A stretch of 64,000 nt of DNA from Bacillota bacterium (GTDB lineage: Bacteria > Bacillota > Sulfobacillia > Sulfobacillales > Sulfobacillaceae). The notes under the pieces were generated by a model. That model worked only from the letters and a program-made list of their open reading frames with translations. It did not search any database and was not told the DNA's origin. The position numbers were made by a program, and so were the translations under genes. Positions 48,932 through 62,923 of this stretch are shown one piece after another; the first letter of the stretch is position 1, and every line of letters starts with the position of its first letter. The stretch is from positions 1-64,000 of the forward strand of contig JAJYHT010000035.1 in the NCBI GenBank assembly GCA_021784595.1, read 5' to 3'.

Positions 48932-48963
48932 CGGCAACACAGGGAAAGGTCGGAGAGAAATTG

Positions 48964-51480
48964 ATGGAACATGATATGGAATTTTCTTCTGGGATAAATC
49001 CAGGTACATCAGAGCTTAGTTGGAAAATATTTTTAGACCGGTATACGGTCAAAGATCCCTCTCGCAGTTTTGAGGTTGGCGACTTAGCAATTGCGTTAGT
49101 CGAAGCACATCCCAAGTGGCCTAAAAAAGACATTGGTATCGTGCGAGCATTGTTGCCAGACCGTTACCTGTCCATCGAACTAATTACTGGACCACAAAAA
49201 GGCGAGCTAATCGAGCGCCGCGTCGTGGAATGTGACCGCCCGACTGAGACCTCTATACAGCAAGTGGCCAAGCGCATTGCTTCAGGCGTAGCTTCGGTGG
49301 AGCCCGACGCGGTCCGCGACACCATTGAACAAGCGTTCGCCGAAGAAATCGCGGCCTTACGCTTTGTGCCGGGCGGCCGCATATGGGCGGGAGCTGGAAC
49401 TGATCAGCAACTTACATACTTCAACTGTTATGTGATTCCCAGCCCACGGGACAGTCGGGATGGCATTGTGGAAACTCTGGGCCAAATGATTGAAATCATG
49501 AGTCGGGGAGGGGGAGTGGGAATAAACATTTCCTCTTTAAGACCTGCGCGGGCAGCTGTGCGCGGTGTCAACGGACGGTCATCGGGCGCCGTGTCTTGGA
49601 TGGATTTATACTCTAGAGCCACCGGCTTAGTCGAACAGGGAGGCTCACGCCGAGGCGCATTGATGCTGCAGATAGAAGATTGGCATCCAGACTTATGGCG
49701 CTTTATTGAAGTGAAAAAGACTCCAGGCATGGTAGAAAATGCTAACATTAGCGTCCGCATTTCGGACGATTTTATGCAGGCCGTGAAATCCGACGGAGAT
49801 TGGAGCCTTGTGTTCCCTGACACCACGGATCCGGATTACGACGCGGTGTGGGACGGCAATCTTGAAACCTGGAAACAGCTAGGAAAGTCCGTTGTGGTCT
49901 ATGAAACCGTCAAAGCCCGAAAAATTTGGCACGACATCGTACAAGGAGCCTGGCAAGCCGCAGAACCGGGCATTGTGTTTGACCAAAGACATGAAAAGGA
50001 TTCAAATAGTTGGTACTTCAATCCACTAATCAGCACCAATCCGTGCGCTGAACAACCGTTGCCCGCTTGGGGCGTGTGTACCTTGGGCCACATTAATTTG
50101 GCAGCCTTTTACGATGACCAAAAAGATGATGTGGCCTGGGACCGATTGCGTACCACAGTGCAAATGGGCACGCGTTTTCTGGATGACATTGTAGATGCAA
50201 CGCCGTACTTTTTCCCACAGAACTACGACAATCAACAGAAGGAACGAAGAATCGGACTGGGCACCATGGGATTAGGAGAGCTTCTCATTCGCCTGCATTT
50301 GCGATATGGAAGTCCCTCGTCTATTGCCTTCATCGAAAAATTGTACCAATTTATCGCGGTAGAGGCCTATCAATATGATGTGCAGCTAGCGCAAGAAAAA
50401 GGCGCTTTCCCCGCTTTTCGCGCTGAACAATATTTACAGAGCGGCTTTATGCAGAAGATGCCTGAGTCGGTACGCAATCTCATAGGGCAATATGGCGTAC
50501 GAAACGTTACCATTCTCACCCAGGCCCCCACTGGCACAGTGGGCACCATGGTAGGTACCAGCACTGGTATTGAGCCCTTCTATGCCCTAACCTACTTTCG
50601 GCAGTCCCGACTGGGCTTTGATGAGCAATTTGTGCCTGTAGCAGCAGAATGGAAGGCCCAACATCCTCAAGAAGATCTGCCCGACTACTTCGTAGGTGCT
50701 ATGGATTTGACACCCGAAGAGCATGTCTATGTTCAAGCGGCCATCCAACGCTGGACAGACTCCAGCATATCCAAGACCGCCAATGCGCCTAGTACTTACA
50801 CCGTGGAAGATACCGCCCGACTATATGAACTGGCCTATGATTTAGGCTGCAAAGGCGTGACCATCTACCGAGACCAAAGCCGATCAGAGCAAGTTCTGCA
50901 TTTGGCCGAAGAGGACAAGAATCCCATCGCACCATCGAGTCCTGAGCGGACACAACCTGGGGTTGAGGTCTATCCGGTTCCCGCCACCGTTAATGGGCGC
51001 ACATTTCGCAAGGAAACACCTGCCGGCACTGCGCGTGTGGTGATCAATGAAGTGGCCGGCAACCCATTTGAAGTGTTCATGCTGTTAGGGCGCGCGGGAT
51101 CCGAAGTCCAATCCTTTATGGAATCCTTAGGCCGGGTTATCAGTTTGTATCTAAGGTCCCATGGCGACTTGACGCCGCGCCGACGTTTGGAATTAGTGGC
51201 TGAGCAGCTTAAAGGAATTGGTGGAGCCAATCAAATGGGATTTGGGTCCGGAAGGGTTCTCAGTGTAGTAGATGCCATAGGCCAATTGCTTGAAGGCTAT
51301 CTACACCAGGAGCTAAACAATGAAGTAGCTGCCACCATGCCAGAGATCGCATTCAACAACGTACCGATCCGAAAACCTCGTACCCCAGAGTTGGATCTTT
51401 GTCCCCAATGCGAGGCACCGACCTTAGTCTATGAGGAAGGGTGCCAGCATTGCACCTCGTGCGGCTATTCTAAGTGTTAG
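48964..51480 (+). CDS. nrdJ: Adenosylcobalamin-dependent (class II) ribonucleotide reductase
   Basis: An 838-residue class II reductase, oxygen-independent and needing vitamin B12. The catalytic core has STNPCAEQPLPAWGVCTLGH (Asn, Cys, Glu of the active site), TYFNCYVIPSPRDSRDGIV with the first redox cysteine, GGGVGINISSLRPARAAVRG and the QAPTGTVGTMVGTSTGIEPF loop. The C-terminus, after a ~170-residue extension, ends in a zinc-ribbon-like CPQCEAPTLVYEEGCQHCTS plus CGYSKC, which shuttles electrons. It starts 32 bases after nrdR. Reduces ribonucleotides to deoxyribonucleotides. Confidence 0.96.
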   Translation: MEHDMEFSSGINPGTSELSWKIFLDRYTVKDPSRSFEVGDLAIALVEAHPKWPKKDIGIVRALLPDRYLSIELITGPQKGELIERRVVECDRPTETSIQQVAKRIASGVASVEPDAVRDTIEQAFAEEIAALRFVPGGRIWAGAGTDQQLTYFNCYVIPSPRDSRDGIVETLGQMIEIMSRGGGVGINISSLRPARAAVRGVNGRSSGAVSWMDLYSRATGLVEQGGSRRGALMLQIEDWHPDLWRFIEVKKTPGMVENANISVRISDDFMQAVKSDGDWSLVFPDTTDPDYDAVWDGNLETWKQLGKSVVVYETVKARKIWHDIVQGAWQAAEPGIVFDQRHEKDSNSWYFNPLISTNPCAEQPLPAWGVCTLGHINLAAFYDDQKDDVAWDRLRTTVQMGTRFLDDIVDATPYFFPQNYDNQQKERRIGLGTMGLGELLIRLHLRYGSPSSIAFIEKLYQFIAVEAYQYDVQLAQEKGAFPAFRAEQYLQSGFMQKMPESVRNLIGQYGVRNVTILTQAPTGTVGTMVGTSTGIEPFYALTYFRQSRLGFDEQFVPVAAEWKAQHPQEDLPDYFVGAMDLTPEEHVYVQAAIQRWTDSSISKTANAPSTYTVEDTARLYELAYDLGCKGVTIYRDQSRSEQVLHLAEEDKNPIAPSSPERTQPGVEVYPVPATVNGRTFRKETPAGTARVVINEVAGNPFEVFMLLGRAGSEVQSFMESLGRVISLYLRSHGDLTPRRRLELVAEQLKGIGGANQMGFGSGRVLSVVDAIGQLLEGYLHQELNNEVAATMPEIAFNNVPIRKPRTPELDLCPQCEAPTLVYEEGCQHCTSCGYSKC

Positions 51481-51530
51481 GGGACCTCTAACTGAATTTC
51501 TTAGCGATCGTTCCTAACGGCTGACTAATC

Positions 51531-51571
51531 AAGGGATTCCAATACTACACAGGTAGTTTGGAATCCCTTTT
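51531..51571 (+). terminator. nrdJ terminator hairpin, overlapping the left end of the mobile element
   Basis: AAGGGATTCCAA (51531-51542) pairs perfectly with TTGGAATCCCTT (51558-51569); inside, ACTAC pairs with GTAGT around ACAG, with one unpaired T. TTTTA closes the structure. It is a strong intrinsic terminator, 50 bases behind nrdJ, and also contains the left repeat of the element described next. Confidence 0.8.
51540..51561 (+). repeat. Candidate left terminal inverted repeat
   Basis: Pairs with 61152-61173 on the opposite strand at 19/22 positions; mismatches at 51541, 51545 and 51555. Another ACCTGTGT occurs inward at 51586-51593, in inverted orientation, and may be an additional recombinase site. 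Confidence 0.5.
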
Positions 51572-51651
51572 AGTGTGTTATAAATACCTGTGTATATTTA
51601 TGGTTGTGATTTCCACAAACAGATGTTTCAATACTGTTGTGGGGTGAAATC

Positions 51652-52812
51652 ATGTATGTAAGCCTGGAATGGGTAACTCTGTCGGACGGTGTTCGATTTC
51701 GGACGATTTGCAGAAACGGTGTGCCCTGGATTGAGCCGACGCGCTTTCTCATGCGGTATGGACATTTGGGTATGGGATCCGCTCGCACAGTCGATACATA
51801 CGCTGAGCGCCTCCTGCCCTTCTTTCGCTGGGTGGCTCACGAACAACTTGCACTGTCCGACGTCGATCAACGCGGGTTTCATCGCTTTCAGCGCGATTTG
51901 GTGATTCGCGACACGGCGCACCCGTTGCTGTTAGCCAAGGGACCGAACTCCAGCCCGGTGACGGTCCGGTCGACGATCACCATGGCGGCGCGGTTTCTTG
52001 AGTGGTATGGGTCGGAGTATGCCATTTCCGCTAACCGAAGATTCGATTTTAGGAAGGGTCCTAAGACGGCTTACGGGGCTGCAGATCGTCGGCTTTCGGC
52101 ACGCACCGGGCTCCCACGCGCCAAGCGCAAGTTGCCAAAAGCGTTAACGGCGGCGCAAGTTGACCAGTGCCGCGAGTGGATTATGGATGCCTACGGCTTT
52201 GATCCGGCCCTGCAACTCCGGAATCGGGTAATCTTTGAACTGTTTGTCGGCGGGGCGATGCGCCTGGGGGCGCTGTTGGGACTGAGGAGTGAAAACATCT
52301 TTTGGACCGAACGGACTATCCTCGTCTCGTATACTGAGGCTGACTATCGTATGGCTTGGGGCACCAAACAACGTCATCATCGGGCCGCCAAAACCGGCGA
52401 ATACCTGATCGCCGTTGGATCGGACACCGTGCTCTGGCTGAACCGCTACTTCTTGGAAGTACGACCTGCGGCGGCGGTTCGCCTCAATCACGGTATCTTC
52501 TTCTGTGAACACCAGCCTGGCGGTTCCAAACATGGCGCCCCAATTCACTCTACTACCGTCCGATATCTGTTTCGGTCGTTGTCGAAGCCCCCGAGTGAAG
52601 GCGGTGTCGGCATCCATGTGACTCCTCACATGCTCCGCCATACGTGGGCTACGCTGGCACGCCAATCGGGCTTGGATATCAAGGTGATCCAGTACCAATT
52701 AGGCCATCAATCGCTACAGAGTACCGATCTATATTCACATGTAAGTCCCGAGTGGGTCCGGGACGCCTTGGATGCGTGGCACCAGCAGCGGGCCGGAAGA
52801 AGTAGCCGATGA
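51652..52812 (+). CDS. Tyrosine recombinase 1 (TnpA-like)
   Basis: A 386-residue tyrosine recombinase. The SAM-like core-binding domain covers residues ~30-135; the catalytic domain has GGAMRLGALLGLRSENIFW with arginine I, then HVTPHMLRHTWATLARQSGL with the His-x-x-Arg pair, QLGHQSLQSTDLYSHVSPEW with the second His and the nucleophilic tyrosine. All active-site residues are present. It cuts and joins DNA through a 3'-phosphotyrosine. Size and position match TnpA of Tn554. The ATG at 51652 has GGGGTGA upstream. Its end overlaps the next recombinase by ATGA. Confidence 0.9.
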   Translation: MYVSLEWVTLSDGVRFRTICRNGVPWIEPTRFLMRYGHLGMGSARTVDTYAERLLPFFRWVAHEQLALSDVDQRGFHRFQRDLVIRDTAHPLLLAKGPNSSPVTVRSTITMAARFLEWYGSEYAISANRRFDFRKGPKTAYGAADRRLSARTGLPRAKRKLPKALTAAQVDQCREWIMDAYGFDPALQLRNRVIFELFVGGAMRLGALLGLRSENIFWTERTILVSYTEADYRMAWGTKQRHHRAAKTGEYLIAVGSDTVLWLNRYFLEVRPAAAVRLNHGIFFCEHQPGGSKHGAPIHSTTVRYLFRSLSKPPSEGGVGIHVTPHMLRHTWATLARQSGLDIKVIQYQLGHQSLQSTDLYSHVSPEWVRDALDAWHQQRAGRSSR

Positions 52813-54350
52813 AGCGTATCCCCTGCCAAGGCGGCCAATTTGTTGAGGTGCTTGAGGACAACCAATGGCTTGTTCCCATGGGTGTGGGCCCCTTCACACG
52901 TAGATATAAAGTGGACCTCACGCGACTGCCGGTAGATGTTCGCGATTGGTGGCGAACTGTCTTCACTGAAGCGTTTCGCATGGATTCCTTGGCTCAGGTT
53001 CGCGGCATCTGGCATACGGCTCTCTGGTTCTATCGCTTTCACAAGGCCACGTCACGAGTGCCGACGGTGCGCTGGGATGAATGGCAGCGTGTCGACTGGG
53101 GGGCGTATGCGCACTGGCTAAATGAGCAGCAGGGCATACGCGGCCGTCGACCCTTATCCCTCGACTATCGCCGTGGACAATTCGGGTGGTTGGCAGCCGC
53201 CGCGCAACATGCTATTGACGTGGGACTGCTGGGAACGAGCGACGTCACGATTTCCCGCTTGAAATCGGTGTCCAGTCGGGTTTTTCGTGGAACCCAAGAC
53301 GTGTCGAACCAGCGATTGGTGCAGCGCGCGTTGTCCCACGAGCAGTGGGACGAGCTGGACAGGATATTGTCTGAGGAATGGTTCGCGTTGCAAGATCCGG
53401 GTCGAACACTCGACCCACCTTTTCGACTTAGCGTTGTAGTTGCGGCATGGCTGACGTTCCACCACGGGGTACGATCCGCTGAGATTAATCGTTTAACGGT
53501 TGACGACATTTTACCGGACGCGGATGGCCGGCACCATTTGAGAGTCCATGCCCCCAACAAGGCCGAGGACCTCATCCCGATTGACGCGATGACGCTGCAC
53601 ATGCTGGAGGTCTTAGTCGATGTGGGGGCGGAGTGCCGGGCAGACCTCGGCACTCGCCATCTGTTTGTGGGGCGCCGTCGAGGCCCACGCATCCTGGGAA
53701 CGACTGCCAACCCCGCTCAAAGCTTGACGTGGGGACTTCGCGACCTCATCCAGCGTTACGAGGCGGTCGAGTTGCCGAGTACTATTACGTTTCCGGATGG
53801 GCGCTTAACCTTCGGGACGCATCTCGCTTACGATATTGGCAATCGTGAAAAGGTGCGACAAATCATGCGCCACGAAAACGCGAGCACAACAGAGCGCTTC
53901 TATCGCGCACCGGATAAACTCCGCGTGGCCAAAGATATCTCCTCCGCTATCCGCAGTGAAGCGGTACGTCTCACGATGGCGTGCCAGCAACCAGTTATGA
54001 GCGTGGAGGAAAGGCCCGATCACCAGGAGGTACTGGCCCGAAATCCGGAGAACGCCCAGCTCGAATATGGCTCTTGCGGCTTGGATGTTCAGCGCCAAGG
54101 CACCTGCCGCATGGCTGTCCATTGCTTTGAGTGTCCGCTGTTGGTGCCGTGGGTCTCCAAACGCCACAACTTTGTATATGAACGAGATGTTTACGAGAAG
54201 AAGGCGGCGGAAGCGGCGAATGACCGGGACCGTGAGAACTATCTGCGGCATGCGGCATTGGCCGAGGCCCACATCCTGTTGATTGACCGGCGAAAGGAGG
54301 GGCCAAGTGGACCAATTGCACCAACCCGAAGCCGTAGACCGCGTCGATAG
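52809..54350 (+). CDS. Tyrosine recombinase 2 (middle enzyme of the trio)
   Basis: A 513-residue phage-integrase-type protein coupled by ATGA to the first recombinase. The catalytic domain shows TFHHGVRSAEINRLTVDDIL with arginine I, DGRLTFGTHLAYDIGNREK, whose Arg aligns with arginine II of its neighbour, and RQIMRHENASTTERFYRAPD with His and the likely Tyr. The His of the usual HxxR motif is replaced (PDGR), so the active site is atypical. A cysteine cluster, YGSCGLDVQRQGTCRMAVHC then FECPLLVPW, follows the catalytic domain, as in large Tn554-type recombinases. It may act as a partner for the others in a mixed synaptic complex. Its C-terminus overlaps the third recombinase gene by 44 bases. 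Confidence 0.85.
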   Translation: MKRIPCQGGQFVEVLEDNQWLVPMGVGPFTRRYKVDLTRLPVDVRDWWRTVFTEAFRMDSLAQVRGIWHTALWFYRFHKATSRVPTVRWDEWQRVDWGAYAHWLNEQQGIRGRRPLSLDYRRGQFGWLAAAAQHAIDVGLLGTSDVTISRLKSVSSRVFRGTQDVSNQRLVQRALSHEQWDELDRILSEEWFALQDPGRTLDPPFRLSVVVAAWLTFHHGVRSAEINRLTVDDILPDADGRHHLRVHAPNKAEDLIPIDAMTLHMLEVLVDVGAECRADLGTRHLFVGRRRGPRILGTTANPAQSLTWGLRDLIQRYEAVELPSTITFPDGRLTFGTHLAYDIGNREKVRQIMRHENASTTERFYRAPDKLRVAKDISSAIRSEAVRLTMACQQPVMSVEERPDHQEVLARNPENAQLEYGSCGLDVQRQGTCRMAVHCFECPLLVPWVSKRHNFVYERDVYEKKAAEAANDRDRENYLRHAALAEAHILLIDRRKEGPSGPIAPTRSRRPRR

Positions 54351-57300
54351 TGCATCTGCTGGGAGCCAACGACTACCTTTTCCATATGAAGAGGATCAGT
54401 GGGACTTGGCGTATCGCGCCACGACGGCAGCGACGCCAGGAGCCTCGATAGTCAATTTTGCCACCTTGCCAGAAACCTGGAAGGCCGATGTCAAAGCGTT
54501 TGTTGCAGACGGGGTGTTGGGTCGCAATTTAAGTAACGGATGGGCACAATCGACGATGTCGTGTCTTCGACTGTTGATCGACTTGGCTGTGGAACGGCAC
54601 GGACAGGAAACGGGACCGGAAGCTCTTAATCAACAGGATGCTCGGCGGGTTGAGGAGTACATCCGATCAAGCGGCCGCGTCCGTGGCCGCGGTACAATTC
54701 AAGTGATTGCCGAGTTCGCCGACTTTGTCCGATCTCATCGTCTTGGCGAGCCCAAGCGTTTTCGCCCTGACCCTCATGTGGTTCCGACGCAGCCTAAGCG
54801 TAAGACGTACAGCGAGGGTTGGGAACGTGTGATACCGGACGAGGTCAGCAGCGCTTTGTTGCAGGCGGTGAAAAGCCGCTGGGAGGTTCTCAAAGTCGAA
54901 AACCGGCCCGTTCGTGGAGGACGACTACGGAGTGAAGAACTTTATTTAGGTGTGGTCGTGTTGCTGCTGTTCTCAGGTCGACGTATCTCCGAACTTCTCT
55001 TGTTGCCCCGAGAGTGCCTGCGCGAACTCACAAGCCGGGAACTGGAGCAAACAGGACCGGGCATCTGGCTCGTTCACCATAATACCAAGACTGGCACGGG
55101 CCTTGATGAGGCATTTATACCGGAACCAGCGGCTGAGATGGTGCGGGACGCCGTGATGCGCATTCAAGTCCTCACGCAGGGCTTGGCCGCCATTAGTGGC
55201 CTAGACCTGTTGTTTATTACGAACGCGCAGGCCGGTGCCCTAAACGTCGGGACAATTCGCGGCGTCAGCAGTAATGCATTCAGGCTGTGGCTCAACGGTC
55301 GCATGACCGAGGATGGACAGGTCTTACGACCTGGGTTCATTCACAGGGCCGACATTCGATACATGGGCGAGTACTATCCAATCGACCCGCACCAGGGGCG
55401 TCACACGCTGGCTCATAAAGCGTATATGGGCGGTGCCGACTACGCGCAGGTCAGTGACCACCTGGGCCACCGGCGGACCCGTGCTGGGCTCAACCCGATG
55501 ACGGGCGTCTACATCCATGGGGAACAAGACGCGGTCCGCCAGATTCTCGACCATGCTGACCGCGGTCGGTTGGTGGGCAAGGCGGCCCCGCTTGTCGAAA
55601 ACCGATCTGCAGTAATCTCGGTGGAACCGAAGGATGTGGCTATCTACCAGGAACAAGGCATGCTGGTGTTGCCGACCCATTACGGTCACTGCTGCCTGCC
55701 AGCTGCGAGCGGTCCGTGCGTCACCGGAGATCCTTGCTGGATCGGGCCACAGGGAGACGGGTGCGACTATGCTCTCTATACACCGGAAAGTCAGGCGGCC
55801 CTAGAAAAAGACCGCGAGCTGTTGCAGCACCAAGTCACCGAGCTGGCAGATCGTGAGCCGCGTCATCCCCGCCTCGGACAGCTGCAAGCACGAGTCGCAC
55901 GGATTAATCAAGTGTTGCATGAGATCAAGGTAGCGATGGAGACCGACCCTACGGACTCGCTTCCCATGTTTTCGCCAAGAGCGGGTATCACTCCCAACGA
56001 ACCCGAACTGGTGCCGGGCCTTCCACCACCCGTTGGCCGGCGGTTGAAGTGGCGGCGACGGGAAGCAGCGTTAAAAAGTGGCGCCGGCTTTCCACCGTAT
56101 CGTGGTCCGCGACTTGAAGGAACGAGACATTCCGTTCCGGTGCTACTCCCCATGCCTACGGAATGGAGACAGCGTGCCGAGACTTTCCTGGCAGAATTGG
56201 AATCCGGCACCCATCCGTTGGCGCCGTCGATCTTTGCCAGGCGTCTTCGCATTCCGTTTCGTGCGTTCCTGCAAGCACCCGACATCATCGAACGGCTTCG
56301 CCGACACAATACCCGGTATGCACCGGTCGCAGAGGGCCGCATGGAGACGCGACTTGGTGAGTTGCGCGACCAGAACCTGCTTGCAAGCTATCGGGAATTT
56401 GCTGGGCTGCGCGGTGTCTCGCTGCGAACTCTGTTTTTGCGTCACCCCAATTGGTGCCGCCGGCTTGCTGAGCACAATAGGGCCATTCGTCGGAACCATA
56501 CCCGTTTGTTGGCTGAGCAACGGCTGGCGGAGTTGGAGGAATCTCAGACGCCCGAACCGTTGTGGATGTTCGCCAAGGTCCTTGGCCGGGACCGTAGTTG
56601 GCTCCGGCGGGAGTTGCCGGATGTGGTCAGTCGGTTGGTCCACCACAATCAATGCATGGGTCTTAAGGGTGCGCACATTCCGAAATCCGAGCGGATTGCG
56701 GCCATCCGACAAGAGTACGAGGGCGCTAAACGCTTAGGGCTCGCCTTATCCGCACAGGATTTGGCGGGCCGCTGCCACGTGTCCGTCGATACGATTCGTC
56801 GACATTGTCCAGAGATATTGCAGGAGATGCGGGGGCCATCCGCTCATGAGCGGCTTAACACAGCGTGGGATGTGTTGGAAAAATTGGACGAGGTGCTCGA
56901 CGTGGCACGGATCGCCCAGACAGCTCAGACGTCGATCAACTGGATAACGCAGCAAGGCGCGTTATGGCAAGAGAAAGTCGCGGAACATAATCGCAAGGTT
57001 CACATTCGGCAATTAGAACGCACGTGGGAACGTTATGCGGCTCAGAGTGAACGTTGGTCGGCTAAACGTTTTGCGGAGGAAGCGGGACTGACCTATGGCG
57101 AATTTCGCACCCAATTTCCTGGCTGGAACGCGCGGGTTGTCGCGGTTCCAAAGGACGATGCGACTCGCCGGCATTTGGAGCAGCTATTGGAAGAGGTCCG
57201 CATGAGCGACCAGATAGTTAGCCCCGTGACCTTAGCAAAGCGCGCCGACGTGACCTACACCACCCTTCTGCGCCACTATCCCGACATTTATGGGGCTCTC

Positions 57301-57489
57301 AGGGATCACGCAATGGAGTTTCGGCCGCGCATTGAGGCCTATCTCGCGGAGCTGGAATTAACGGACACACCGGTGTCGATGAGCGCCTTTTGCAGCCACT
57401 GTGGAATCGCCCATTATTCCCACTTACTAGCGTATTTTCCGAACATTGCGGAGCGGGTGCGTTCGCTCAAGAGCACCGGTAGGAGGTAG
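54307..57489 (+). CDS. Tyrosine recombinase 3 with a C-terminal array of about eight HTH-like repeats
   Basis: A 1060-residue protein. The catalytic part (residues ~45-430) has FSGRRISELLLLPRECL with arginine I, YPIDPHQGRHTLAHKAYMGG with HxxR, HLGHRRTRAGLNPMTGVYIH with His and Tyr; all residues are present. A Cys/His cluster, YGHCCLPAASGPCVTGDPCW then DGCDY, near residue 460, and a coiled coil follow. From residue ~616 to the end come about eight units of 50-55 residues with a common plan: a helix with RLxEL, a helix-turn-helix-like FARxxGVSxxTL, then a HxPxxxxRLxxHN ending (unit borders near 56152, 56335, 56497, 56680, 56844, 57000, 57157, 57319). Typical TnpB proteins lack this array. The GTG at 54307 is preferred to an upstream TTG because AAAGGAGGGG precedes it. 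Confidence 0.85.
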   Translation: MDQLHQPEAVDRVDSASAGSQRLPFPYEEDQWDLAYRATTAATPGASIVNFATLPETWKADVKAFVADGVLGRNLSNGWAQSTMSCLRLLIDLAVERHGQETGPEALNQQDARRVEEYIRSSGRVRGRGTIQVIAEFADFVRSHRLGEPKRFRPDPHVVPTQPKRKTYSEGWERVIPDEVSSALLQAVKSRWEVLKVENRPVRGGRLRSEELYLGVVVLLLFSGRRISELLLLPRECLRELTSRELEQTGPGIWLVHHNTKTGTGLDEAFIPEPAAEMVRDAVMRIQVLTQGLAAISGLDLLFITNAQAGALNVGTIRGVSSNAFRLWLNGRMTEDGQVLRPGFIHRADIRYMGEYYPIDPHQGRHTLAHKAYMGGADYAQVSDHLGHRRTRAGLNPMTGVYIHGEQDAVRQILDHADRGRLVGKAAPLVENRSAVISVEPKDVAIYQEQGMLVLPTHYGHCCLPAASGPCVTGDPCWIGPQGDGCDYALYTPESQAALEKDRELLQHQVTELADREPRHPRLGQLQARVARINQVLHEIKVAMETDPTDSLPMFSPRAGITPNEPELVPGLPPPVGRRLKWRRREAALKSGAGFPPYRGPRLEGTRHSVPVLLPMPTEWRQRAETFLAELESGTHPLAPSIFARRLRIPFRAFLQAPDIIERLRRHNTRYAPVAEGRMETRLGELRDQNLLASYREFAGLRGVSLRTLFLRHPNWCRRLAEHNRAIRRNHTRLLAEQRLAELEESQTPEPLWMFAKVLGRDRSWLRRELPDVVSRLVHHNQCMGLKGAHIPKSERIAAIRQEYEGAKRLGLALSAQDLAGRCHVSVDTIRRHCPEILQEMRGPSAHERLNTAWDVLEKLDEVLDVARIAQTAQTSINWITQQGALWQEKVAEHNRKVHIRQLERTWERYAAQSERWSAKRFAEEAGLTYGEFRTQFPGWNARVVAVPKDDATRRHLEQLLEEVRMSDQIVSPVTLAKRADVTYTTLLRHYPDIYGALRDHAMEFRPRIEAYLAELELTDTPVSMSAFCSHCGIAHYSHLLAYFPNIAERVRSLKSTGRR

Positions 57490-57491
57490 TC

Positions 57492-57983
57492 GTGGCCAAT
57501 AACCGAAAAATCAACGGCAAGACCACTGAACAAAGACTGCGCGAGGAGTTGCAACGAATAAAACAGACCCGCGAAGCGGTGACGGTGGCGGAGTTCGCAC
57601 GACGAGCGCGGGTGAGCTATGCGTCGCTGACCCATGACTATAGGGAAATTGCTGACGAGGTGCGTCGCCTTCGTGATGCGGGAAAACCGTTACCGAGTCC
57701 GTCACCAGTCACGTTGCCGCGGAAGCGGCATCCAGATCTCGTAGAGGCCAGTACCCTTATCGGACAGCTAAGGCAGCAAATTGTGAACCTAGCCAGTGAA
57801 GTATCAAATCTACAGGAAGATCGCGATCGATGGCAGAGGCGAGCTCAACGGCTGATGGTCGAGGAGAACCACAATGAGCTCTTACGAGGGATCATCGCGA
57901 CGCTGTCTAATGATTTGGCCTGCGAGACCGACCAGCGAATGCTGCTCCGCCTGATCGAGGAGGCCAAACCTCAGAATACCTAG
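57492..57983 (+). CDS. DUF6262/TnpC-like small protein
   Basis: A 163-residue protein beginning 2 bases after the third recombinase, with AGGAGG before a GTG start. The N-terminal ~55 residues (RLREELQRIKQTREAVTVAE, then FARRARVSYASLTHDYREIA) are one unit of the type repeated in the recombinase C-terminus. The C-terminal ~85 residues are a coiled coil (LIGQLRQQIVNLASEVSNLQ, EDRDRWQRRAQRLMVEE). This organisation matches TnpC of Tn554 and DUF6262 proteins, small accessory factors that influence transposition direction and efficiency in Tn554. Confidence 0.8.
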   Translation: MANNRKINGKTTEQRLREELQRIKQTREAVTVAEFARRARVSYASLTHDYREIADEVRRLRDAGKPLPSPSPVTLPRKRHPDLVEASTLIGQLRQQIVNLASEVSNLQEDRDRWQRRAQRLMVEENHNELLRGIIATLSNDLACETDQRMLLRLIEEAKPQNT

Positions 57984-58180: not shown

Positions 58181-59406
58181 GTGGATATGGATAAAGCAGC
58201 TACGATAGCCAGATTGAATCGGGTATTTAGCCCAAGTGCGCCAGTAGACGATGCTACCTTGTTCGCAGGACGTTCCCTTCAAATCAATCAGTTGTTGAGC
58301 TTGCGGGTCAGCGCGGTCAACACGCGATCATCTTTGGGGAACGCGGCGTCGGGAAGACTTCTCTGGCAAATATATTGTCCCCGGTACTTAGAAGCGCTGA
58401 TCTGCCGCATGTCGCTGTGCGGGTAAACTGCGATGCTTCTGATGATTTTCAGAGCATTTGGACCAAGGTTTTCGCGAATATCTCTATTACCATTGAAAAG
58501 AAGACGCCGGGATTTGTGCCACAGTCTCAATCGGTTGTCTATCCTCTCAGCGAACTAGCCAGTACCGCTTATTCTCCAGATGTCATAAGGCTCACCTTGT
58601 CCCGTCTTGCGGTACCCGTGGTCGTAATCATTGACGAGTTGGACCGTCTGCCTCGGCGTCGTTCCGACATCTCGCGCCTGTTTGCTGATACCGTCAAGAG
58701 CCTTTCTGATCACAGTTCGCCTGTCACGCTCGTGTTGGTTGGTGTAGCGGACTCTGTTAGCGATTTGCTGGCGGAACACCATTCGGTGGAACGTGCTCTT
58801 GTGCAGATCCACATGCCCCGTATGAGACACGCTGAGCTACAGGAAATTATCACTAAAGGGGCCACCGTCCTCGGTATCGGCCTGGATGACGATCTTCCTG
58901 AGGTTTTTGCCCAACTCTCTATGGGGTTCCCGTATTTTACGCATCTTCTTGCTCACCACACATTTTCGGAGGCTATCCAAAATGGCTCAGACAAAGTCAC
59001 GCTCGCGCACCTTGGGGCGGCCATGGTGATAGAGTTGAACAACGCTGAACACAGCGTTGTTCAACTCTATCACCGTGCGACCGATACAACGCGACCGGGA
59101 ACCCTCTTTGAACCGGTGCTATTGGCTTGCGCGCTATGCGACGTGGATGACATGGGATTTTTCACGGCGCGGGCCGTTCGCGATAAGCTAACAGCCGTCA
59201 CAAGACGCAAATATGATATCTCCAGCTTTTCGAGACACCTCAATGCGTTCTGCCATTCCCGGGGACCGATATTGGGGCAAAATGGCGTCCGACGGAAGTT
59301 CCGTTTTCTTAATCCGTTGATGCAGCCGTATATCATTCTCCGCGCCTTGTCCTACAATCTCCTAGATTTGAATGGGCTCATCTCGAACGCGAAGGAGTCC
59401 TCCTAA
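58181..59406 (+). pseudogene. AAA+ ATPase (Orc1/Cdc6-like), interrupted by a frameshift
   Basis: The first ~40 codons (DKAATIARLNRVFSPSAPVD ... LFAGRSLQINQLL) are in one frame; from about 58300 the homology continues in the -1 frame with GQRGQHAIIFGERGVGKTSL (Walker A), VPVVVIIDELDRLPRRR (Walker B) and a C-terminal winged-helix part ending KFRFLNPLMQPYIILRAL. One base is missing between about 58285 and 58306; I see no slippery heptamer that would justify programmed frameshifting. The GTG at 58181 has GGAGG 10 bases upstream; an extended -10 TGCTATATT lies at 58136-58144. A perfect 22-bp inverted repeat lies in the coding sequence at 59026-59073. If intact, it would be a cytoplasmic ATPase of about 408 residues, perhaps of a defence or DNA-binding complex with the next gene; a sequencing error is the simple alternative. 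Confidence 0.8.
59026..59073. repeat. Perfect 22-bp inverted repeat inside the AAA+ gene
   Basis: Bases 59026-59047 are exactly complementary to 59052-59073, with a 4-base loop (AACA). The segment encodes the VIELNNAEHSVVQLYHRA stretch, so both arms are translated. Confidence 0.95.
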
Positions 59407-59719
59407 CTGTCTCCGGTGCGGTGCCAGCGAACGAAAGTGGCACAAGGGGTGGCAAGATTCATGGAGCACATGATGCTATCCGAGGCGACGTCGCATGAAG
59501 AGGAGGATGTTAAGCACGGCGTCGCAATATGTCCGGTAGCATTCGGCGACGTTTTGGGTTAATCAGTCCGTCGCGATATTCTTGACGACGAAAAAGACAT
59601 CGTTTCTTCCCGATTATAGGCTTCTGCGATCCGGGGGACCGAACTGTGGGGGAGACGTGGGAAAACCATCAAACGTTGGTATTCATTTTACTATAGCAAT
59701 GAGGGAGGATTTTATTCTA

Positions 59720-61000
59720 ATGGTAAGCAAAGAGCAAATCGTACAATGGGTGGCGGACGGTGAAACTGACAATGTAGACTTCAAGGCCCCGATGCCCTTC
59801 AAGGAGTCCCATCGGGCGGAAATAGCCAAGGACATTATTGCGCTCTGTAATACCAAGGATGGAGGCGTCCTGTTGATCGGCGTGGAGGACGAGCCAGCGG
59901 TAATCGTTGGTGTCCCCGACATTGACGCAAGGACGTGGGAAGCGACGAAAATCCACGATTATTTGCGCCGACACGCCGATCCTGTTCCTGTTGTCCGCGT
60001 GGAAAAGGTGGATGTGGATGGTAGACGGGTGGTTGTAGTCATCGTAAACGAATTTTCCGGACAGCCAGTGGTTACCACACGGGATTCAGCCGCTTTCGTG
60101 GAGGCATCGGTTCTTATGAGGCAGGGTGTGTCATCCAAACCTATCGCGTCCGCAGATGCAATGCGCGACTTGTTGGAGCGAGCCATTCGACGGCGGGCGG
60201 ATCAGTTGGTCATAACTTTGGGTAAGGTTATCCGAGGCGACGATCCTGTTCCGCACCAATCCCCGAGTTACGACGCGGAGCTAGCTGTCATTGCGCCGTT
60301 GCGAGCGACGACGGCCGCAGATCGGAATGGTCAGTCGTTGGGTTGGTGGCAAGTCTCTGCGTTTCCTCAACATGAGGTTGCAGTGACGATGACCCAGGTC
60401 AAACGTCTAGAATTGTGGAGGACTGCCTCCGTGAACTTTCGCGGGGGAGGAATGCCGTATTGGGACCCCGCCCAGTGGTGTGTTCGCCACAGTGACGGCC
60501 AGACGCGACTCCAGTATCAGCTCGTTGCACCTCCGCGCCAAGAGGCGTGGGTGGCATTTGACTCTGGAGTATTTGGCATGGTGCGAGCGATGCCGGAAGA
60601 TTTATGGGGTCAAGTTGGGTGGGCAACTAATCCGAATACTCTAATGGACATTGTAGAGACCATTAGTTACTTAACCGAAATGCACCTGTTCTTCCTGAGA
60701 TACTTCCAAACGCTCGCTTACGACGGGGGAATTCGTATCGAGGTCCTGTTAGGCAATTTAGCGGGACGTTCGCTGACGTCGACTGAAGGGTTCTTTATGC
60801 CATCCCTAATGGGCGCCAGGTCGTACAGTGACACTTTCCAATACGCATACGAAGTGGACATGGCGGAAATGCCTTCCCGCGTTCTGCAACTTGTAGTCGG
60901 GACGGCCGTGCGGTTGTTTGAGTTGTTTAATTGGGATAACGAGGGGCTTATACAGCAAAAGGCGATAGAGCAGATCAGTCGTGCTGGATATCGGCTTTAA
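59720..61000 (+). CDS. AlbA_2 (Schlafen-type) DNA-binding domain protein
   Basis: A 426-residue protein. Residues ~10-130 form an AlbA_2 domain: ETDNVDFKAPMPFKESHRAE, IAKDIIALCNTKDGGVLLIG, then VEDEPAVIVGVPD and the hydrophobic strand RRVVVVIVNEFSGQPVV. Such domains bind nucleic acid and occur in Schlafen-like and defence-associated proteins. The C-terminal ~270 residues are unknown to me, with FRGGGMPYWDPAQWCVRHSD and helices near the end. The ATG at 59720 follows GAGGGAGG and places the domain at the N-terminus; the frame is open further upstream. It lies 313 bases behind the AAA+ gene, a gap in which I see only a short unassigned open frame. Last intact gene in the proposed element. Confidence 0.8.
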   Translation: MVSKEQIVQWVADGETDNVDFKAPMPFKESHRAEIAKDIIALCNTKDGGVLLIGVEDEPAVIVGVPDIDARTWEATKIHDYLRRHADPVPVVRVEKVDVDGRRVVVVIVNEFSGQPVVTTRDSAAFVEASVLMRQGVSSKPIASADAMRDLLERAIRRRADQLVITLGKVIRGDDPVPHQSPSYDAELAVIAPLRATTAADRNGQSLGWWQVSAFPQHEVAVTMTQVKRLELWRTASVNFRGGGMPYWDPAQWCVRHSDGQTRLQYQLVAPPRQEAWVAFDSGVFGMVRAMPEDLWGQVGWATNPNTLMDIVETISYLTEMHLFFLRYFQTLAYDGGIRIEVLLGNLAGRSLTSTEGFFMPSLMGARSYSDTFQYAYEVDMAEMPSRVLQLVVGTAVRLFELFNWDNEGLIQQKAIEQISRAGYRL

Positions 61001-62431: not shown

Positions 62432-62923
62432 TGCAAATTATTCGTCGACGGCTATATAGGCGGATGGGATCTTCCAACTCATTGCACACTTACCAACAGT
62501 GACTTTACCACTGTCAATCAACATCTTCAAAGTCATGGACCCTCGTTTATCATCGAGCGATGTCAAGACGAACTTCAACGCATTGAGGAGGAGTTGGCAG
62601 AGCCCATTCGTTCCAATTTCTCTGTGGTCCCACGTTTTGCCCGACGGGCATGGACGTCGGAGGAGCGCGAGCACCTCATTGCCATACTCAACGAAGAATG
62701 GTGGACCTGGCGCGCGTGGCACGACCGTGGGACGGACCATGGTCGGACACCTGATCTGTTAACGGTTACCGCATCGTATCTGTGCTGGAAAGAAACCGTG
62801 CGGCCTTAAGAGATCAACGTCCTCACCGTTGCGGACGTAGACGTCGGCGTAGGGAGACTCCGATTACATGCGCCGAATAAGAATGAGTATCTTCTCGAAT
62901 TGCAAAGCCCTGCTTCGAACTGA
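62432..62923 (+). pseudogene. Decayed second copy of a middle-type tyrosine recombinase
   Basis: The open frame reads ...SVVPRFARRAWTSEEREHLI, AILNEEWWTWRAW, TASYLCWKETVRP, then TAA (62807-62809), then EINVLTVADVDVGVGRLRLH, APNKNEYLLEL in the same frame. It aligns with the intact middle recombinase at 53.3-53.6 kb: SHEQWDELDRILSEEW, AAWLTFHHGVRSAEINRLTV, GRHHLRVHAPNKAEDLIPI. The ochre codon replaces the alanine two residues behind catalytic arginine I. Both ends of the gene are missing. Only ~40% of residues agree, so it is from a different, older element and not a recent duplication. Confidence 0.8.

Follow-up and report, generated by a model that had tools for sequence, protein, structure and literature searches.

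Our analysis indicates that the window, the 64,000-nucleotide stretch of Sulfobacillaceae DNA under study, carries a mobile element that belongs with the SEs, GInts and Tn554 and has inserted site-specifically at the stop codon of a ribonucleotide reductase gene. The third recombinase of this element is a Tn554-TnpB-like enzyme extended by eight helix-turn-helix (HTH) units of predicted TetR-like fold, and, judging from their sequences, the array units match in kind the single unit with which its TnpC-like partner protein begins. Elements of this kind are already known; an HTH array in such a recombinase appears to be undescribed, and we found no description of HTH arrays in tyrosine recombinases in the open-access literature, subscription journals being outside that coverage. 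Tyrosine recombinases usually reach their arm sites via one small domain or separate helper proteins, and resistance genes are among the cargo that SE, GInt and Tn554 elements disseminate. Array units that occur as a single copy in a helper protein give direct access to the question of what role the little-understood TnpC/Srap/GinD proteins play, and the array recombinase likewise provides a way to study the evolution of end recognition in these elements.

The array recombinase is encoded by the third of four operon genes, neighbouring members of which overlap or sit a few bases apart:

51637-52812, + strand: first recombinase, complete and TnpA/IntA-like (Pfam Phage_integrase, 9e-21; Tn554 TnpA, E 3e-23 with a family profile)
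52809-54350, + strand: second recombinase-fold protein, Tfp-like, with the HxxR box lost and a Cys cluster near the C-terminus
54307-57489, + strand: array recombinase, TnpB/IntB-like, an open frame of 1060 aa with a GTG start at 54307
54814-55626, + strand: its catalytic domain, residues 170-440 (R226, H362, R365, H388, Y402)
55681-55776, + strand: its Cys cluster, residues 459-490
57492-57983, + strand: TnpC/Srap/GinD-like protein with one HTH unit (57528-57683) and a likely coiled coil

Residues 1-560 of the array recombinase constitute a tyrosine recombinase. The preliminary description had noted the R, HxxR, H and Y residues together with a Cys cluster, and the comparison upheld this assignment: R226, H362xxR365, H388 and Y402, the residues that mark a tyrosine recombinase, showed no variation across four homologues, and C462, C471, C477 and C486 were likewise invariant. 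A family profile matched Tn554 TnpB of pELF2 (E 2.4e-9), indicating TnpB homology. Thus, the earlier assignment to a Tn554 type was correct for the TnpB-type enzyme but incomplete for the element, because the presence of three recombinase genes and a TnpC-like gene places it closer to SE/GInt than to the two-recombinase Tn554. HxxR is kept in the first and third recombinases. Loss of the catalytic motif in the second protein is partial, as the first Arg and a candidate Tyr persist.

The tail of the array recombinase contains eight tandem HTH units spanning residues 618-1058, in agreement with the number of about eight that had been proposed:

56158-56328, + strand: HTH unit 1 (residues 618-674), by profile and prediction, weak alone
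56329-56502, + strand: HTH unit 2 (675-732), by profile and prediction
56503-56682, + strand: HTH unit 3 (733-792), by profile and prediction, weak alone
56683-56841, + strand: HTH unit 4 (793-845), TetR-like fold, by profile, prediction and structure comparison
56842-57003, + strand: HTH unit 5 (846-899), degenerate in sequence, TetR-like fold, by profile, prediction and structure comparison
57004-57156, + strand: HTH unit 6 (900-950), by profile and prediction
57157-57321, + strand: HTH unit 7 (951-1005), by profile and prediction
57322-57480, + strand: HTH unit 8 (1006-1058), by profile and prediction

Off-diagonal self-alignment of residues 601-1060 gave a score of 109, whereas 20 shuffled sequences scored no higher than 48. 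To avoid circularity, the unit profile was built solely from five-unit relatives (G108 and G120) without any window sequence. This profile matched the window protein with an E value of 7e-31, and its domains fell at residues 622-669, 678-726, 737-782, 800-842, 848-881, 902-946, 957-1001 and 1008-1056. No domain scored above 5 bits with the unit profile in any of 300 shuffled tails. These shuffles rule out a chance repeat or low complexity as the source of the array. Units 1, 3 and 5 are weak individually (2-5 bits); their register, comparison with the orthologue and the structure prediction back them up. Unit 5 is degenerate, with 33% identity to the orthologue and no basic residue in its second HTH helix. 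The earlier account of repeat units stands with two amendments, in that the units are 51-60 residues long rather than 50-55 and the HPxxxxRLxxHN ending is clear in some of them only. When the unit profile was run over 692 contig ORFs, significant matches were confined to the array recombinase and the N-terminus of the product of the next gene.

Structure prediction of the tail was in accord with this arrangement. The AlphaFold2 model of the tail, made with five homologues, consisted of eight serial helix-HTH-helix units, some of which share long joining helices, and its overall packing was not fixed (mean pLDDT 84.4, pTM 0.37). At this confidence, the eight separate predicted units rule out a tail that is a single globular or coiled-coil domain. 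Five such units were predicted for a five-unit homologue, with lower confidence (pLDDT 64). Unit 4 aligned with TetR-family DNA-binding domains over 52 residues (Z 7.1, 2.5 Å), and units 4 and 5 both aligned with such domains, including DNA-bound LuxR and KstR, at Z scores of about 6-7, although values below 8 may reflect no more than a common arrangement. Searching PDB sequences with the unit profile returned mostly TetR proteins (best E 3e-4), and Pfam TetR_N was the commonest match of single units (6 of 21 units, best E 0.004, all below the cut-off). Foldseek with the whole tail gave nothing significant, the best match being a helical repeat protein (E 0.04), a result with which known folds are still compatible. 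These comparisons suggest that units 4 and 5 may have the TetR N-terminal DNA-binding fold.

The same unit was recognised in the TnpC-like protein, whose N-terminus matched the unit profile with an E value of 7e-11. The match of this protein to DUF6262 (E 0.002, 18.7 bits) was below the curated cut-off of 29. Despite this sub-threshold match, its position and its HTH unit point to a DUF6262/TnpC role. The fourth protein of a GInt-like element of P. aeruginosa also matched the unit profile (2.5e-5) and weakly matched the fourth protein of the operon studied here.

Homologues of the array recombinase were found in four other Sulfobacillus-type genomes, and the number of units differs among them, being either eight or five. 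The G101 homologue is 67% identical and has eight units; those of G108 (906 aa), G120 (934 aa) and a further MAG (L009, reading frame interrupted) have five. Across the class, the tail profile found full arrays in only four genomes, all of one family, plus weak single-unit matches, and over 398 genomes of the phylum the array profile matched its own genome only. No close relatives were found in viral contigs, and none of the window protein in plasmids. Matches to the recombinase part that lack an array were Tn554 TnpB (pELF2, with erm(A) and ant(9)) and third recombinases of similar operons, namely L087 (633 aa), L083 (656 aa), L092 (521 aa) and a 595-aa protein encoded on a Malaciobacter plasmid. 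Tn554 TnpB is 630 aa long and has no array, as had been stated. The unit profile matched none of these five proteins, and in Tn554 TnpB, L087, L092 and Malaciobacter the recombinase match ends about 10-35 residues before the C-terminus, where an array would begin. Because array-less homologues match almost to their ends, the array is a C-terminal addition.

Comparison of arrays showed that, for G108 and G120, the unit at the same position is the best or joint-best array partner of each unit, with the exception that G120 unit 4 is closer to G108 unit 3. The five-unit proteins thus retain unit order at 47% overall identity, and therefore the units would be individually constrained rather than interchangeable. 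Between the window and G101, identity was 62% over the array (441 residues) and 78% over the catalytic domain, with the same number of units and 58-71% identity for seven of the eight between genera. No unit-by-unit diagonal was seen between eight-unit and five-unit arrays. It is very unlikely that the array is a non-essential expansion from a duplicated TnpC-type HTH domain, tolerated and drifting: although unit number differs between subfamilies, unit 5 is poorly conserved and relatives elsewhere move without an array, the conservation of identity and unit number between genera and the preserved order in five-unit elements argue against it.

We next consider the insertion site and the ends of the element:

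48961-51480, + strand: class II ribonucleotide reductase gene (Pfam Ribonuc_red_lgC, 3e-113), the stop codon of which is the insertion site
51476-51492, + strand: attL core GTTAG-GGGACCT-CTAAC, with 5-bp inverted arms and a 7-bp spacer, overlapping the reductase stop codon
51524-51574, + strand: left-end hairpin carrying the arm-like motif CTACACAGGTAG at 51545-51556
51585-51594, + strand: second arm-like motif of the left end, TACCTGTGTA; the distance to the first, about 39 bases, is kept in six genomes
Contig 65225-65241, outside the window: attR core GCTAG-ATTCAGT-CTAAC

In the window, G108, G120, G117 and others, the class II reductase gene is immediately followed by a recombinase ORF or what remains of one. 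Both borders of the element have TTAG-N7-CTAA-type cores, which form imperfect direct repeats and indicate site-specific insertion, and attL and attR span about 13.7 kb. Empty sites were found in G119 and G113, where the flank corresponding to contig 65225-66164 directly follows the reductase stop codon. That attL and attR differ in their spacers agrees with the footprint behaviour known from Tn554 and SEs. The border at 65225 was the sole complete junction found downstream; in principle it could stem from an older copy, given that pieces of other elements are present in the cargo. In G120, the reductase gene is followed by a five-unit element of about 9.2 kb and then by the older remains of an eight-unit-type element, which keep an intact left end at L011 12183. 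Where a five-unit element is inserted, the TAG stop codon of the reductase gene is replaced by TGA, so that the element provides the stop codon. The G108 and G120 reductase genes (L010 8-3043 and L011 7-3024) also have long in-frame intein-like insertions in two different places, none of which is seen in the window gene.

The two types differ in their end motifs. In the eight-unit type, ACACAGGT begins 66-69 bases past the stop codon within a terminator-like hairpin, as seen in 9 of the 30 listed RNR loci when one mismatch was allowed, and an inverted copy, ACCTGTGT, lies 38-39 bases beyond it in six genomes. Right ends of this type have one or two ACCTGTGTA copies ahead of the core, and a 57-59-bp block beside the right arm motif is 93% identical among G000, G121 and G098. 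The window copy may be impaired, as its right end seems short of about 52 bp including one arm copy. In five-unit types the left palindrome at this position is another one, for example TGTGTACTCACA or TGTGTACACACACA, and the right end has TTTGTG-N6-CACAAA. No relation between array length and end length was visible, the conserved motifs of both types reaching about 110-120 bp. A correspondence of one unit per tandem end motif was unsupported, with only two arm-like motifs at each end versus eight or five units. In L013 and L047, behind the G121 RNR gene, a stretch of N (masked or a gap) lies within the left end of the remnant and hides its structure.

We infer, with about an even chance of being right, that the array helps to hold the long ends of the element, the DNA contact itself being predicted. 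Strand exchange at the core would be carried out by the first and third recombinases, while the array would act as a built-in multi-point arm-binding domain that grips 50-100 bp of the element's own end, different units reading different bases. TnpC-like dimers on the palindromic arm motifs would act with the array, allowing end recognition and correctly ordered assembly of the synaptic complex. This role is suggested by the TetR-like fold, by the same unit in the helper protein and by the long conserved ends, as well as by the finding that eight- and five-unit types share a target and have different ends and non-collinear arrays. Since all of the recombinases differ between the two types, the differences in end motifs cannot be assigned to the array. 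Against a role in holding the ends are the uneven charge, the mismatch between motif number and unit number, and recognition helices that are not preferentially conserved. The net charge of +11 for the array, compared with −6 for the catalytic part, speaks for the role, but most of it comes from units 1 and 2 (+4 and +6, strongly basic), and units 5, 7 and 8 have no net positive charge. Moreover, the palindromy of the arm motifs is more in keeping with a TnpC dimer than with a linear array. Thus, of the earlier proposal that the units contact a long stretch of DNA in series, the serial HTH modules were borne out, whereas the two arm-like motifs per end and the recognition helices (67% identity versus 61% for the rest of the array, p 0.43, not significant) did not favour serial contact.

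A more specific version would be a modular DNA reader whose HTH units each touch a short stretch of their own. The choice of end or target DNA would then depend on how many units there are and in what order, and recombinase specificity would evolve by gain, loss or change of units. We rate this as distinctly unlikely; should the modules indeed read DNA in series, the protein would amount to a recombinase joined to a naturally occurring modular scaffold for DNA reading.

Reading of the target, rather than of the ends, would be a TnsD-like function: the array would recognise the conserved 3′ coding end of the reductase gene and bring the element to that site. Tn7 TnsD recognises the glmS 3′ coding end, and natural fusions of TniQ to HTH domains include the AcrR type (PMC11406308). 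This precedent, the strict targeting of one gene end in several genera and the weak similarity of the unit profile to TnsD 8v32 (E 0.12) speak for such a function. However, the arrays of eight- and five-unit elements show no unit-by-unit alignment and yet go with one target; site specificity is also found in Tn554 and GInts, which have no array; distinct GInts likewise occur at the end of a reductase gene (PMC5385486); and the core domains of a recombinase are normally enough for attB. We therefore consider target reading, the chief rival, unlikely and weakly favour end recognition over it. The parallel with Tn7 TnsD/TniQ, in which a transposition protein is fused to HTH domains and a conserved gene 3′ end is targeted, is functional only, as the enzyme class is different and there is no demonstrated homology.

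It is similarly improbable that the array is, as a second rival would have it, a protein-docking scaffold whose HTH-like bundles bind one another or the TnpC-like and Tfp-like proteins, organising the recombination complex without reading DNA. The TnpC-like partner carries an array-type unit, so unit-unit contacts are conceivable, and some units are predicted to be linked by long helices. The lack of positive charge in several units and the unexceptional conservation of the recognition helices would also be compatible with docking, but the strongly basic units 1 and 2 speak against it, and the fold resembles the DNA-binding domain of TetR rather than its dimerisation part.

Among known systems, SEs are strand-biased circularizing integrative elements, reported from Gammaproteobacteria, that circularize without an empty site and have a 6-bp spacer between the terminal imperfect inverted repeats of the circle, and their operon consists of intA, tfp (recombinase fold, no catalytic motif), a large complete intB, and srap, which encodes an auxiliary protein with a coiled coil and a weak TetR-like prediction (PMC10214605). 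The window operon matches the intA-tfp-intB-srap order, including a second protein without HxxR, although that protein retains the first Arg and candidate Tyr, unlike Tfp of SEs. Both are site-specific, with a spacer between imperfect inverted repeats and heterologous spacers at the two borders. The spacer in the window is 7 bp, between GTTAG and CTAAC, as read from attL and attR rather than from a circle, and an HTH array is unmentioned in the portion of the SE paper's text that was searched (PMC10214605).

The ginABCD operon of GInts encodes three integrases, the third of which is degenerate, lacking the first Arg and often any catalytic motif, and a TnpC-like fourth protein; Bardaji et al. 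reported that, in P. aeruginosa, GInts also occupy the end of a ribonucleoside-diphosphate reductase gene (PMC5385486). The window element shares with them three recombinase genes followed by a TnpC-like fourth, cargo behind the operon, gene-end sites that include reductase, and imperfect direct repeats. In contrast, its degenerate protein is the second and its third is complete, and the GInt-like third protein that was compared has 616 aa and no array. The homology of Tn554 TnpB to the array recombinase extends to residue 610 of its 630, and TnpC is weakly similar to the TnpC-like protein, whereas Tn554 has two recombinases rather than three, no array and a different insertion site.

Behind the operon, the window contains cargo genes and a remnant of another element:

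58375-59406, + strand: AAA/STAND-like ATPase
59582-61000, + strand: Schlafen AlbA_2-domain protein
62638-62918, + strand: remnant of a five-unit element, from its second recombinase gene (96% identity over 281 bp to L010 4926-5206)

The ATPase and Schlafen-domain genes (58375-61000) gave weak matches to the candidate defence families PDC-S59 and PDC-S50. The remnant, the source type of which is from another genus, suggests recent mixing of five-unit and eight-unit elements. Antitoxin-like and PIN-toxin-like genes lie directly behind attR (contig C45 65412-66040; L042 1412-2040), and another left-end-like sequence at contig 66196, 87% identical over 87 bp to that of G121, suggests tandem accretion of elements. 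In G118, a 418-bp remnant (L054 112-530) has a left and a right end, is flanked on each side by the same 15-bp core, TTAGAAGACCTCTAA, and is a gene-free minimal element.
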